Virus record (IMG/VR): IMGVR_UViG_3300042691_002463
Span: 1-27,389 of that record
Direction: 5' to 3' (one strand)
Source of the DNA: a virus
DNA: 27,389 bases
Below the pieces are notes generated by a model. That model was not told the origin of the DNA. It was given only the letters and a program-made list of their open reading frames with translations, and ran no database searches. Positions 7,748 to 13,152 of this stretch are shown in pieces. Within the stretch, counting starts at the first letter, position 1; every line of letters starts with the position of its first letter. Made by a program: the position numbers and the translations under genes.

Positions 7748-8467
7748 GTGACAGAACAAATAAATCTTGAAGAGATAAAACTTAAGCTGATAGAACGTCT
7801 TAAGCCATCCGGCTGGGCTACTAAGCTTAGAGGATTTATCCAGAGCTCTGACTTTACTAAAGTGTTAGAGACATTATATAAACTTAGAGAGGATGGTAAA
7901 AGATTTACCCCACCTCTAAAGCAAGTGTTCAGGGCATTTGAAGAATGCCCCGTAGATAAACTAAAGGTGATCATGATTGGACAAGATCCCTATCCACACT
8001 TTGGAGTAGCAGATGGCCTTGCTTTCTCATGTAGTAACACAAGAAAACCACAGCCAAGTCTTCAAAAGATATTTGAAGCTGTGGACACTACTCTTTATTA
8101 TGGAGAAGAACCCCCTGAGCATAATCCAGATTTAACTAGATGGGCTAATCAAGGAGTTCTTCTTCTAAATACAGCTCTTACATGTGAAATAGACAAGGTG
8201 GGATCTCATACACCTATATGGAAAGAGTTTATAGCCTATGCAATGGATATTATAAACTTTACAGATGGTGGATTAATCTTTGTACTTATGGGTAAACAAG
8301 CTCAAGAGTTAGAAGGATTAATAGGAGACCAACACTACATCATTAAAACCACACATCCTGCTTATGCTAGTTATACTAAGCAACCGTGGGATTGTGGTGA
8401 TATGTTTAACGAGATTAACAAAATTATTAACGGACAGAATGGTCCAACATTTAAAATCAACTGGTAA
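7748..8467 (+). CDS. ung: Uracil-DNA glycosylase (family-1-like)
   Basis: 239 aa, GTG start. The catalytic loop is GQDPYP (78-83, Asp80 activating water), followed by GVADGLAFSCS (uracil pocket Phe93). LLLNTALT (138-145, Asn141) contacts uracil, FVLMGKQAQ follows, and THPAYASY (202-209, His203) stands where family 1 has HPSPLS. The final His of the usual GQDPYH is Pro here. It removes uracil from DNA. UDG is common in crAss-like and related phages. It overlaps the next gene by 1 nt. The GTG start is supported by the spacing to the divergent gene and the absence of an earlier ATG. Confidence 0.93.
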   Translation: MTEQINLEEIKLKLIERLKPSGWATKLRGFIQSSDFTKVLETLYKLREDGKRFTPPLKQVFRAFEECPVDKLKVIMIGQDPYPHFGVADGLAFSCSNTRKPQPSLQKIFEAVDTTLYYGEEPPEHNPDLTRWANQGVLLLNTALTCEIDKVGSHTPIWKEFIAYAMDIINFTDGGLIFVLMGKQAQELEGLIGDQHYIIKTTHPAYASYTKQPWDCGDMFNEINKIINGQNGPTFKINW

Positions 8468-8832
8468 TGGCAATCAACAAAGTGGACTTGACAGTAAGTC
8501 AAATTATTAATGACCTAAACTCAGGTTTGACATGGCTTAAGAAAGATGATCTTGGCTATGGAAGTATAGAAAGTAAATATGGTGCTGTACCTGCACAGAT
8601 TGCAGCTATTAGAAAACATCCTTCTCTTAAAGATGCAGAGACTACTATTACAATCTTTAATATTATAGATGATACAGCCACGAAGACCAATGAAAAGAAA
8701 GACTCCTCCACCACCCAAGAATCTACAATTACTGGGTCAACAAATAAAGTGGAACAACCAGTGGTACCTGTGGTATCCCAGCTTGCAGAAGTGGATTCTA
8801 CAGAAGCAGCAGACATCTTTGCAAATCTTTGA
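8467..8832 (+). CDS. Hypothetical protein, 121 aa
   Basis: The N-terminal half is helical and ordered (VDLTVSQIINDLNSGLTWLKKDDLGYGS, then AQIAAIRKHPSLKD). The C-terminal half is low-complexity, rich in Thr, Ser, Glu and Val (TATKTNEKKDSSTTQES, then VVPVVSQLAEVDS), ending ADIFANL. The N-terminal part could be a small DNA-binding or protein-interaction domain, with KYGAVPAQIAAIRKH helix-turn-helix-like (weak). It starts on the UDG stop (TAATG) and is followed 1 nt later by the ATG of the AAA+ gene. Confidence 0.65.
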   Translation: MAINKVDLTVSQIINDLNSGLTWLKKDDLGYGSIESKYGAVPAQIAAIRKHPSLKDAETTITIFNIIDDTATKTNEKKDSSTTQESTITGSTNKVEQPVVPVVSQLAEVDSTEAADIFANL

Positions 8833-8833
8833 T

Positions 8834-10192
8834 ATGAGTGATCCAAGAAAGTTAAACAGACCTAGTCCATCAGAGAGTGCTACATGGTATAAACCAGGTA
8901 CATATAAAAAAGGTAATGATGGAAACATGTACACTATACAAATTAATAATAATGGTGTACCTAGATGGATACAAGCAAATGGTAATAATTATATTCCAAT
9001 AGAATTAAAAAGTTCTAAACATCCTGGTTATTTACAACAACAAACTATTATAACACAACCAAAACCCCTTAACATGGCAAAGTCAACTAAGACTATTACA
9101 AAAAGAACGGCCCAAGAGGTACGTCAGATTGAAACTTCTTTGATTAACAAAGAAGAAGTATTTAAAATGCTAGCATTGGCAGAGGCCACTGGATTACCAC
9201 TGTTACTAGTAGGTGAGCCAGGTGTAGCAAAGACTAAAACTATTATAGACTATGCCAAAGCTTGGCTAAACAGAGATGGTAAGATGACACAACAGGATTT
9301 CATGAACAAGATCTATGTTCTAGAGACTGACGAGGGTACTAAAGCTTCAGAGATCAAGGGTATGCCAGATCTTGAGAAGCTGTTTACAGATAACAAGTAT
9401 GAGCTTAACACTCCTATTGCTGATGCAGACATTGTAATCATCAATGAGGTGGACAAAGCTAGTTCAGCTATCCGTAATGCAATGTTGGGTGTAATGAACG
9501 AGAAGTTTCTGTTCAATGGTAAGAATAAAATTCCTTGTAAATGGAAGCTCTTCGTAGCCACTTGTAATGAGATTCCTAAAGAAGAAAGAGACTCTCCATT
9601 CTGGGACAGGTTCATTCTGAAGATGGAAGTTAACCGTGTATCTGCCGGCGAGATGTCTAAGTATTACAACAAGGGAGCTAGAGACTATCGTGAGAAGTTC
9701 AGCATTGGTATCCCAAGTAAAGCTGAGATGTCCACTGTAGAAGTTCCAGGTAAGAAGCTTGACAAGTATTTGGAGGTTGGTTATGCTAAGAGTTCAGATA
9801 GAACTCTCACCTTTGTGCCTAATCTTACTAGAGCTGTAAGCTACATCTGGGATATCTCTGTAGATAAAGCTCTTGTAAAGACTGCTCAGATTATGATTGA
9901 TCAAACAGCAGGTTCAGAACTTCAGAATAAACTGATGTCTGCAGAAGTTAAGGCTGTCATGAGTAAAGTGGAGATGTTACATTCTCACACTACTAATGAG
10001 CAGCTTGAGCTGGCAGTAGCTGAGATTGAGAGTATGATTAATGCATATACCACTAGAGGTGTTCTTGATGAAGCACAGGTGGAAGAGATAGAACTCTCTA
10101 TGCAATACATCATGTCTACTCATCCGGCTCGTAAAGACTATCAGACTTCAGAAGAGTTTGATCAGATGTTGACAGAAGAGCATCCGTTCTAA
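8834..10192 (+). CDS. MoxR-type AAA+ ATPase with GNDGNMY-type N-terminal extension
   Basis: 452 aa from ATG 8834, the first ATG after the previous stop. Residues ~18-46 (WYKPGTYKKGNDGNMYTI, then NGVPRWI) form a short extension. The AAA+ core starts near residue 81 at an internal ATG (9074) that could start a shorter form. Walker A is GEPGVAKT (127-134), Walker B DIVIINEVD (199-207), sensor 1 VATCN (241-245), then SPFWDRF (254-260). MoxR ATPases pair with VWA proteins to remodel partner complexes, and such a VWA gene follows. The open frame further upstream (from 8669) shadows the previous gene and is rejected. Confidence 0.9.
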   Translation: MSDPRKLNRPSPSESATWYKPGTYKKGNDGNMYTIQINNNGVPRWIQANGNNYIPIELKSSKHPGYLQQQTIITQPKPLNMAKSTKTITKRTAQEVRQIETSLINKEEVFKMLALAEATGLPLLLVGEPGVAKTKTIIDYAKAWLNRDGKMTQQDFMNKIYVLETDEGTKASEIKGMPDLEKLFTDNKYELNTPIADADIVIINEVDKASSAIRNAMLGVMNEKFLFNGKNKIPCKWKLFVATCNEIPKEERDSPFWDRFILKMEVNRVSAGEMSKYYNKGARDYREKFSIGIPSKAEMSTVEVPGKKLDKYLEVGYAKSSDRTLTFVPNLTRAVSYIWDISVDKALVKTAQIMIDQTAGSELQNKLMSAEVKAVMSKVEMLHSHTTNEQLELAVAEIESMINAYTTRGVLDEAQVEEIELSMQYIMSTHPARKDYQTSEEFDQMLTEEHPF

Positions 10193-10245: not shown

Positions 10246-11742
10246 ATGAGTAAACAATATAAGAATGTCTATACCATTCTTGAGAAAGTAAAGAAGGGTG
10301 AGATAAAGTCTCATTATAAAAATGATGACGGATTATTTGGTAAGATTAACTTCTATAAGAAACCAGATCTTATTAAACCACATATGCACTGGCTAGACGA
10401 AGACAGAATAGATAGTATAATGAATGCTTATTTCCAAGATGGTAAAATGATTAAAGAACAGTATGACAGATTTGCTAAATCTGCAGACTTTCAAAAGAAG
10501 ATTCCTGACGGGCAGAAACCAGACATGAGTAGTTTTCATAGTAAGGTGAGAGATAATTACAGAAAGTTTCCTAAACATATTGTAAAGGATATCTTTAAGA
10601 TGTATTACCATAAGATGGAACGTCTAGAATTTGAAGACAGGACAGATGCTAATCAAGGAAAATATAAGTTCTTAGAGAAAGCTAACAATCCTGTAGCTAA
10701 GATTATGTCTCAAGGTTCTAATCTAAAGTCTGCCATCTTTGCTAGAAACATTATGGGTGCATACATTACTAGACTGACCACCATGGATTATACAGCGGCT
10801 GATGATTCTCAGAAAATTAAAGACAGTCTATCTGGTAACGGAGATGAGTTTAATGAACAAGATATGAAGGATGCTTTAGACAATATGTTTAATAGCACTC
10901 AAGGTAAGAATGGACTGGAGAAAGCTATAGAAGATGCCACTCAGCTTTGTAAAGATATGGACCAGAATATGGACCAGGAAATCCAAGAGAAGATGTTTGA
11001 TAATGCTAATCAGTCTGGTAGTGATGGTACAGCAGGTAATCTTAGTCCTGACTATATCAGACAAGTATCTCAGAGATTAGCTAGAATTAGCATGTCTATG
11101 GGAAGTTTGAAAGAAAAGATTAAGAAGCTGTTGGATAAGTCTGTAAGTTACTTTAGTGCTAAACAGCAAGTAAAGTATGAAGACTTATTTAATAGTGATA
11201 ACATAGCTGGGCTAGAAGACTATGAACTCTTGCATCCCAAGCTACGTAAGATCTTTGCTGAAGATGTCTATGTAAAAGATACTAAGTCCATTGGTAAGAT
11301 AGATCTTTATATAGATATATCAGGATCTATGTCTAGTAGTTGTGGTGCAGATGGTATTAGCAGGATAGATTTTGCTAAGTCATTTGCAGCTAAGCTTAAA
11401 GAAATGGATATGCTAAATGACATCTATCTTTTTGACAACAGGGTTAAGAAGTATAGAACAGATCTGATTAGTATATCTATGATTGACTGTGGAGGTGGTA
11501 CTACCATCAATAATGCTGTAAGTAGTATAGAAAGAAATGGTGTGAATGCTCTAGTCATTACAGATGCAGAAGATGGATGTAACATCTATTCAGAAAAAGC
11601 TTTCTTTATTGGTTTACAAGGAGCCAACTTCAATTATTTTGAAGAAGAAACAATAGCTCAGTATTCTAATAAAGATCAAGTGCTCATCTTTGATGGTAAG
11701 AGTATTAAGAGAGTGAATGCTATGGGGTATGTAGTTAAATAA
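10246..11742 (+). CDS. VWA (MIDAS) domain protein, partner of the MoxR ATPase
   Basis: 498 aa. Residues 1-345 are helical and charged, with a Gln/Asp/Asn-rich middle (DMDQNMDQEIQEKM). The C-terminal VWA domain begins near residue 349, with MIDAS motif IDISGSMSS (D357, S359, S361), GGGTT (416-420) and ALVITDAEDG with D440. An intact MIDAS implies divalent-metal-dependent binding of a partner. The MoxR-VWA arrangement is known from NorQ/NorD, CobS/CobT and RavA/ViaA, where they act together as a chaperone or metal-insertase machine. The phage target is unknown. The start ATG follows AAATTAATTACC. Confidence 0.9.
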   Translation: MSKQYKNVYTILEKVKKGEIKSHYKNDDGLFGKINFYKKPDLIKPHMHWLDEDRIDSIMNAYFQDGKMIKEQYDRFAKSADFQKKIPDGQKPDMSSFHSKVRDNYRKFPKHIVKDIFKMYYHKMERLEFEDRTDANQGKYKFLEKANNPVAKIMSQGSNLKSAIFARNIMGAYITRLTTMDYTAADDSQKIKDSLSGNGDEFNEQDMKDALDNMFNSTQGKNGLEKAIEDATQLCKDMDQNMDQEIQEKMFDNANQSGSDGTAGNLSPDYIRQVSQRLARISMSMGSLKEKIKKLLDKSVSYFSAKQQVKYEDLFNSDNIAGLEDYELLHPKLRKIFAEDVYVKDTKSIGKIDLYIDISGSMSSSCGADGISRIDFAKSFAAKLKEMDMLNDIYLFDNRVKKYRTDLISISMIDCGGGTTINNAVSSIERNGVNALVITDAEDGCNIYSEKAFFIGLQGANFNYFEEETIAQYSNKDQVLIFDGKSIKRVNAMGYVVK

Positions 11743-12157: not shown

Positions 12158-12586
12158 TTATGGACCTCCAAATGGAAAAATAGCTCCAACAAGAGGACCA
12201 GAACAATCTGGATTTTTAAATAAAGTGATTCCAATGTCAGTTCCTATTGCTAGTACAATATTACCATCTCCGTCTACACTAAATACTCCCATGTATCCAA
12301 GCTGTGCATTAAGAGCTGCTACCAACTCATAAGCATCGTTGTATGTTCCCTCAATTGCTCCAGATACTAATGTAGGTCCCAGTCCACAATAAAACTGGAC
12401 ACCAGGAGTACTAATTGGAAAAAGTGGTGCTTCAAATGTTATTTTAAAACCACTCTGGCAGCACAAGTCTGCTGGAACTTCTTTCCATGTAGAAGGTCCA
12501 TTAGGGTGTGATCCTTTAGTTAGGATCAAACTTCCAGGTACAATCTTTCCTTTCTTACTGTACCTTACAAATGCTCTTGTTTTCAT
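12158..12586 (-). CDS. Structural-like protein with shared N-terminal module (paralogue A), 142 aa
   Basis: The N-terminal ~43 residues (MKTRAFVRYSKKGKIVPGSL, then PNGPSTWKEVPADLCC) closely match those of the neighbouring 184-aa protein. After the CC pair the sequences diverge: here KITFEAPLFPISTPG, GTYNDAYELVAALNAQLG and FSVDGDGNIVLAIGTDIGITLF, a beta-rich, glycine-rich body like tail-tip or fibre decoration proteins. A conserved stub with a variable body suggests a virion attachment module carrying interchangeable heads (inference). It lies in the late minus-strand cassette. The start follows TAAATAATTAAACA. Confidence 0.75.
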   Translation of the reverse strand: MKTRAFVRYSKKGKIVPGSLILTKGSHPNGPSTWKEVPADLCCQSGFKITFEAPLFPISTPGVQFYCGLGPTLVSGAIEGTYNDAYELVAALNAQLGYMGVFSVDGDGNIVLAIGTDIGITLFKNPDCSGPLVGAIFPFGGP

Positions 12587-12597
12587 TGTTTAATTAT

Positions 12598-13152
12598 TTA
12601 AGGGGTAAAATCAAAATCAACTTCTAAAAATCCTCTGCCACAACAGCTGTCTGTACTATATATACCTACAGCAAACCATTCTCCTGGAGGAACTGTTATA
12701 TTCCAAGTACCATTTTCAGGAGTGTCTTCAACTTTTGCAGTAGTATCCCCAGGAATACCTATGGGTTCTGTTGCAGATGTCCAATATACAGGTCTATCTA
12801 CACCAGTTCCTTCATCAAAAGATGTCCAGTTATAGTCTATATCAAATATAGCTCCTGTAGGAAAGAATTGTTTTAAATACACCCAACCAGTATCTTGATC
12901 ATCATTAGGACCAATAATTGTAAATCTATTGTTATTATCCAACTCCTCATTAATCACACTACCATCACCTGCTACACCACCTGTAACAAGAGACCATGGT
13001 GCATAGTTAGATGTAGTATCACAACACAGACTAGTTGTCACTTCTCTATATAGTCCGTCTTTAGGATAGCCTCCTTTAGTTGTCACTATAAGGCTGCCAG
13101 GGATTATTCTGCCCTGTTTTGTGTATTTCACAAAGGCTCTTTGTTTAGACAT
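12598..13152 (-). CDS. Structural-like protein with shared N-terminal module (paralogue B), 184 aa
   Basis: It starts MSKQRAFVKYTKQGRIIPGS and reaches REVTTSLCC near residue 43, the same module as paralogue A (RAFVxYxKxGxIxPGSL...LCC). The body is different: Asp/Gly/Thr-rich beta segments (NNNRFTIIGPNDDQDTGWVYL, GTWNITVPPGEWFAVGIY) ending in FLEVDFDFTP, consistent with a jelly-roll-like binding domain. No signal peptide is seen. Its position beside the lysis genes and its composition point to a receptor-binding or tail-tip role, unproven. Confidence 0.75.
   Translation of the reverse strand: MSKQRAFVKYTKQGRIIPGSLIVTTKGGYPKDGLYREVTTSLCCDTTSNYAPWSLVTGGVAGDGSVINEELDNNNRFTIIGPNDDQDTGWVYLKQFFPTGAIFDIDYNWTSFDEGTGVDRPVYWTSATEPIGIPGDTTAKVEDTPENGTWNITVPPGEWFAVGIYSTDSCCGRGFLEVDFDFTP

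Follow-up and report, generated by a model that had tools for sequence, protein, structure and literature searches.

The MoxR ATPase gene of this viral DNA raises the question of where its protein begins, and of what the sequence lying in front of its conserved AAA+ core might do. The window, that is the whole 27,389-nucleotide (27 kb) stretch analysed here, is an IMG/VR virus record and an incomplete contig. It encodes phage-like replication genes (a DnaB-type helicase, a primase, a Sak4-like annealing protein, a family B DNA polymerase and helicases) as well as an exonuclease and an endolysin. The DnaB-type helicase was nearest, at ~30% identity, to those of uncultured human-gut phages (cr114_1, cr52_1 and others), a set that we take to be crAss-like. 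By sequence relatedness, the window's phage group is one of environmental phages that are distant kin of crAss-like phages. This kinship, together with A-rich leaders without Shine-Dalgarno-like sites, led us to infer a Bacteroidota bacterium as the host.

The MoxR ATPase core and its neighbor

The core of the ATPase (9074..10192; all features lie on the + strand unless noted) comprises 372 residues from a conserved internal Met (MAK) and carries the Walker A motif GEPGVAKT and the Walker B-like motif IVIINEVD. It matched the Pfam family bpMoxR (PF20030) with an E-value of 4e-24 (85 bits, cut-off 27) and AAA_5 with 1.7e-10, and for the relative L035 the best matches of the predicted fold were RavA, the MoxR protein CHU_0153 and BchI. 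Walker motifs, bpMoxR profile and predicted fold agree that the window encodes a MoxR AAA+ ATPase. The ORF at 10246..11742 shows a MIDAS-like pattern (DISGSMS...GGTT...TDAED) but had no match in the Pfam VWA search; from this pattern and its position we presume it to be the VWA partner of the ATPase. MoxR-VWA pairs are widespread, and to our knowledge their choice of substrate is mostly unexplained. With RavA-ViaA, NorQ-NorD, CHU_0153 and the bpMoxR family, the window shares an AAA+ core with Walker A/B motifs, a RavA/MoxR-like fold and a VWA-like gene directly downstream. It differs from them in its variable N-terminal beta modules and overlap-encoded segment, and a beta-propeller partner, the third component of the MoxR-vWA-beta-propeller ternary system linked to PF20030, was not seen among the neighbors scanned, which were part of the ORFs of an incomplete contig.

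A conserved module precedes the ATPase core

The preliminary description, which read the gene from an ATG at 8834, had noted a motif from Trp18 to Ile46 ahead of the core. Translation of 8834-10192 (MSDPRKLNRPSPSESATWYKPGTYKKGNDGNMYTIQINNNGVPRWIQ...) gave residues 18-46 (WYKPGTYKKGNDGNMYTIQINNNGVPRWI) exactly as described, with the Met encoded at 9074 as residue 81. The conserved unit starts earlier than had been seen, with RPSPSESAT at 8858, and comprises residues 9-46 (RPSPSESATWYKPGT…KGNDGNMY…NGVPRWI), about 38 residues encoded by 8858..8971 (RPSPSESATWYKPGTYKKGNDGNMYTIQINNNGVPRWI). We refer to this unit as the GNDG module and defined its family from 39 distinct ATPase-linked sequences with the pattern RPSPxxSAT...GT...GNDGxx[WY]...G[VI]xRW; the window's copy has RPSPxxSAT, GT, GNDGxx[WY] and G[VI]xRW in this fixed order. 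Of 80 relatives from IMG/VR, 48 have the module ahead of the same MoxR ATPase, those 48 accounting for the 39 distinct sequences, although this share is biased upward because the retrieval peptides included KKGNDGNM. With the same bias, the in-frame fusion, borne out here but previously thought to be unusual, was the commonest architecture among the relatives retrieved.

Carriers beyond the ATPase relatives were sought with degenerate DNA patterns, and the contig matches listed, most of them due to chance, were then filtered with an HMM of the module. This profile search had been proposed earlier along with the suggestion that the motif recurs in other phage proteins, and recurrence was indeed found: the HMM matched unrelated proteins of other viral contigs with E-values of 1e-17 to 1e-21, and of 1e-22 to 1e-24 in whole records, which together with the ATPase relatives argues against a chance resemblance. 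The module stands at the C-termini of large proteins that showed winged-helix matches (L119, L120, L121, L147) and at the C-termini of mini-proteins of 60-77 amino acids in the jumbo phages L083 (LR745206, 635 kb), L093 and L103 (both ~345 kb), which are tailed phages since a terminase was found in each. In L135 it forms the N-terminus of a small protein, while in L146 and L148 it is internal. Every module-bearing record examined contained one copy, and the HMM found no copy elsewhere in the records of those ATPase relatives that lack the module at the N-terminus.

The module had no match in Pfam even at an E-value of 10 and none beyond chance level in PHROGs or in a PDB sequence search, and it was not found in 396 Bacteroidota genomes or in plasmids. 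It is, by these searches, a conserved unit absent from the protein-family libraries Pfam and PHROGs, yet it is present in viruses with very different genomes. The WOPR DNA-binding domain was considered as an identity and rejected, its match (4m8b, E 0.65 over 19 residues) being at chance level.

A motif of the form KGNDG...NGVxRW was taken, in the preliminary description as well as by ourselves, to recur in giant-virus proteins. A literature search for KGNDG or NGVKRW in viruses yielded no paper. One NCLDV-like contig (L198 and L310, which are the same contig) bears a protein with GNDG..Y...NGV..W, matched more weakly by the HMM (E 4.5e-6). It shares with the window's module, and with the giant-virus motif, the core GNDGxx[WY]...G[VI]xxW, but the RPSPxxSAT lead-in is missing and the match is confined to positions 14-40 of the 40-position model. 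The contig sits in a gammaproteobacterial MAG bin and encodes an SNF2-type helicase with a RING finger, an HNH protein, a phosphoesterase and low-complexity proteins, so that it looks like a fragment of a giant virus. Two pattern scans of IMG/VR gave phage-type module carriers only and no further NCLDV case, a scan for a Y/S variant of the motif gave nothing, and a search for NCLDV capsid proteins in the carrier records was without a match, as was its control. The part of the claim that concerns giant viruses thus has this single NCLDV-like contig among the matches listed to point to it, and the occurrence of the module in giant viruses is weakly suggested.

The ATPase frame extends through the end of the upstream gene

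The ATG at 8834, which the preliminary description had taken as the start, lies directly past the stop codon of the upstream gene (8467..8832, 121 amino acids). The ATPase frame is open further upstream, from an ATG at 8669, and for the first ~55 codons it shares its bases, in a different phase, with the tail of the upstream gene. The full frame (8669..10192) encodes 507 amino acids, and the long form probably begins at ATG 8669 or ATG 8690. The N-terminal part of the upstream protein is conserved, and its tail is variable, rich in S, T, N and E, and ends in DIFANL; the final 164 nt of its gene lie within the ATPase frame. The protein contains the conserved motif KKDDLGYGSIExKYGAxxxQIxxIRKHPxLKDAET, and it showed a weak PHROG match (E 0.019) to a family of unknown function.

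Among the relatives, the ATPase frame reaches ~45-98 codons back into the tail of the preceding gene. Two kinds of overlap peptide were observed, a W-type (GQxxxWNNQWYxWxxxxQxW) and a helical type (LWxAYLxL). Across the final 44 codons of the upstream gene, 44 of 45 distinct loci kept the overlap frame open. The expected share of open frames was 9.7% if the same upstream peptide was encoded with random synonymous codons and 8.7% (3.9, or about 4 loci) if codon order was shuffled; as the loci are related and were picked for overlaps of more than 100 bases, these odds are no strict probability, and the tails have strongly diverged. No locus had the third frame (A+2) open (0 of 45), nor was the overlap's own frame open further upstream (0 of 44). 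When the peptides encoded by the same bases were compared, leaving out the last 10 columns, conservation in the ATPase frame was at least as high as in the upstream frame for both types (W-type, 45% vs 39%; helical, 28% vs 21%). Three loci (L034, L039, L062) have no ATG in the stretch from the upstream stop to the module; this favors use of an upstream start in these loci, TTG or other starts also being possible. In L158 (3197-3310), a TAG stands where the overlap domain has a conserved Trp codon, and this locus would therefore need an ATG like that at 8834. The overlap is small or absent in L011, L047, L054, L064 and L077.

Using 39 sequences, we modeled the first 105 residues of the long form with AlphaFold. 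The model showed two small three-stranded sheets, at residues 25-45 and 79-102, with pLDDT mostly 87-90 and a disordered joint between them. The latter is the GNDG module, for which structure prediction had been suggested; the former is a W-rich mini-domain encoded by the overlap (8711..8806, PPKNLQLLGQQIKWNNQWYLWYPSLQKWILQ), where alignment and frame conservation likewise point to a coding segment. Taken with this prediction, 8669-8832 is a dual-coding segment with a predicted folded, W-rich beta mini-domain. In the model of L035 a third small beta domain follows, with joints of pLDDT <50; overall, the small beta domains were predicted at pLDDT ~80-90. The possibility that the overlap domain is a diverged GNDG copy was rejected (hhalign probability 0.3%). 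A Foldseek search of the 105-residue model against the PDB gave nothing below an E-value of 0.9. CBM5/12 and WW-like mini-domains resemble the module in having a small three-stranded beta sheet, here a predicted one, with spaced aromatic residues, but neither identity could be maintained, since the module lacks a Pfam or PDB fold match to them.

Phages are known to use dual-frame coding and nested starts, and overlapping phage genes with internal starts share both features with this locus. What sets this locus apart is that the product of the overlap is predicted to be a folded accessory domain belonging to an ATPase, and that it is exchanged together with the tail of the upstream gene.

The context of the internal start is conserved

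A start score was trained on the other gene starts of these contigs, for which presumed real starts averaged 5.2 and other ATGs -5.8. The candidate starts scored 2.9 (8669), 1.2 (8690), -3.2 (8834..8836) and -0.6 (9074; -0.57). The ATG at 8834 thus had the poorest initiation context of the candidates, and with the frame conserved up to 8669 it does not stand as the natural start. In the window, the ATG at 9074 also scored below most gene starts, a C-rich, T-poor leader being the probable cause. This leader (9028..9073) consists of 46 bases without any G; it is A-rich, encodes the Gln/Thr/Lys/Asn-rich linker, and is a candidate ribosome-landing region. The Gln-rich make-up of the linker may partly reflect this leader function.

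Across 52 distinct loci, the internal ATG is preceded by A at -3 in 94%, at -11 in 87% and at -12 in 92%, with 3% G in the region -30 to -1. For the other in-frame ATGs of the ATPase gene, the corresponding values were 32%, 25% and 43%, with 24% G. Ordinary starts also fell below the internal ATG, with A at -3 in 45% and at -12 in 67%. In Flavobacterium johnsoniae, adenines at -3, -6, -12 and -13 were measured as determinants that raise initiation (PMC6847099). If the same start rule is assumed for the host of this phage, the context of the internal ATG corresponds to the Bacteroidota initiation signature. L051 and L053 have lost the internal ATG, and in L050 its position is displaced. The earlier suggestion that ATG 9074 could give the ATPase alone therefore finds support in the conserved context, while the window's own score and the two losses speak against it; the conserved A-3/A-12/low-G context makes two protein forms from one gene plausible. 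Homologues do not uniformly begin at the equivalent of 9074 behind non-coding sequence, as the preliminary description had considered; this arrangement is confined to about four relatives (L056, L060, L061, L076).

The extension is gained, lost and exchanged

In place of the GNDG module or along with it, other relatives carry a VGDxVxV...ESFEL segment, which looks SH3/KOW-like and had no Pfam match, a WVDTTID segment, combinations of segments, or nothing before the ATPase. Mapped onto a tree of 63 ATPase cores, the extension types require at least 23 changes, some label classes resting on simple text patterns. L028 and L030 have near-identical ATPases, but in L030 the module is missing, cleanly cut away at an ATG. 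The ATPases of L009 and L013 are ~0.003 apart, and their overlap domains differ in type (helical against W-type). These contrasts and the 23 changes identify the region upstream of the ATPase as an exchange site, and sequence comparison indicates that the tail of the upstream gene is exchanged along with the extension. The L009/L013 pair points to recombination just upstream of the ATPase.

Discussion

To the reading that the extension is a modular N-terminal cassette, providing interchangeable adaptors on the MoxR ring and made in two translational forms, we give somewhat better than even credence. The small beta domains (the overlap-encoded W-rich domain and the GNDG module, and SH3/KOW-looking domains in relatives) would be tethered to the ATPase ring by flexible linkers, and would most likely serve as exchangeable adaptors that select the ring's substrate or dock it. 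Terminal domains play such a part in other AAA+ proteins, and it is the position of the domains, their flexible tethers and their modular exchange that suggest an adaptor role here. A long tagged form would start within the end of the upstream gene (ATG 8669 or 8690); the short form, an untagged ATPase, would start at ATG 9074 from the A-rich, G-free leader, so that mixed hexamers would bear a tunable number of adaptors, perhaps in cooperation with the VWA-like neighbor. A broader version, in which an undescribed ~38-residue module common to tailed phages and giant-virus-like genomes is plugged into the ring as an adaptor by means of nested starts and an overprinted domain, with adaptor dose set by translation, appears to us doubtful as a whole.

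Since the module is found at the ends of unrelated proteins, in the C-terminal cases listed above and at the N-terminus in L135, the main rival to an adaptor role is a sorting or packaging tag, a terminal signal that would send viral proteins to one place such as the virion or a replication compartment. A common compartment predicts several tagged proteins per genome, whereas one per record was found, and the internal copies in L146 and L148 do not fit a terminal signal; we regard such a tag as unlikely. If instead upstream recombination simply dropped small ORFs in frame while the ribosome mainly started at 9074, the extension would be an evolutionary by-product with little function. The frequent gain, loss and swapping, the conserved context of the internal start and the relatives without any extension would all be expected under this view. 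Neutral sequence would decay, however, and the residues of the module are strongly conserved at low overall identity, just as the overlap frame has been preserved against strong odds, which makes a by-product quite improbable.

The two-form part of the adaptor reading faces an objection of another kind, namely that a single long protein is made from 8669, the conserved Met at 9074 and its A-rich surroundings being left over from an ancestral start or an effect of the K/N/Q/T-rich linker. Linker composition by itself does lower G, and the Met is dispensed with in L051 and L053. The adenines at -3 and -12, however, exceed 90% across relatives whose linker peptides differ, well above the frequencies at ordinary starts, and we consider a single form rather unlikely. 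Given nested starts and an overprinted domain, an automated start call for this gene, at 8834 or at 9074, would probably leave out part of the coding sequence. Rings so closely related, and distinguished only by exchangeable domains at the front end, offer a natural experiment on substrate choice.

Additional observation

Downstream on the - strand (12158-13152), an adjacent pair of ORFs shares a common N-terminus (RAFVKYTKQGRIIPGSLIVTTKG... and RAFVRYSKKGKIVPGSLILTKGS...) and has diverged in the C-terminal parts, an apparent duplication.
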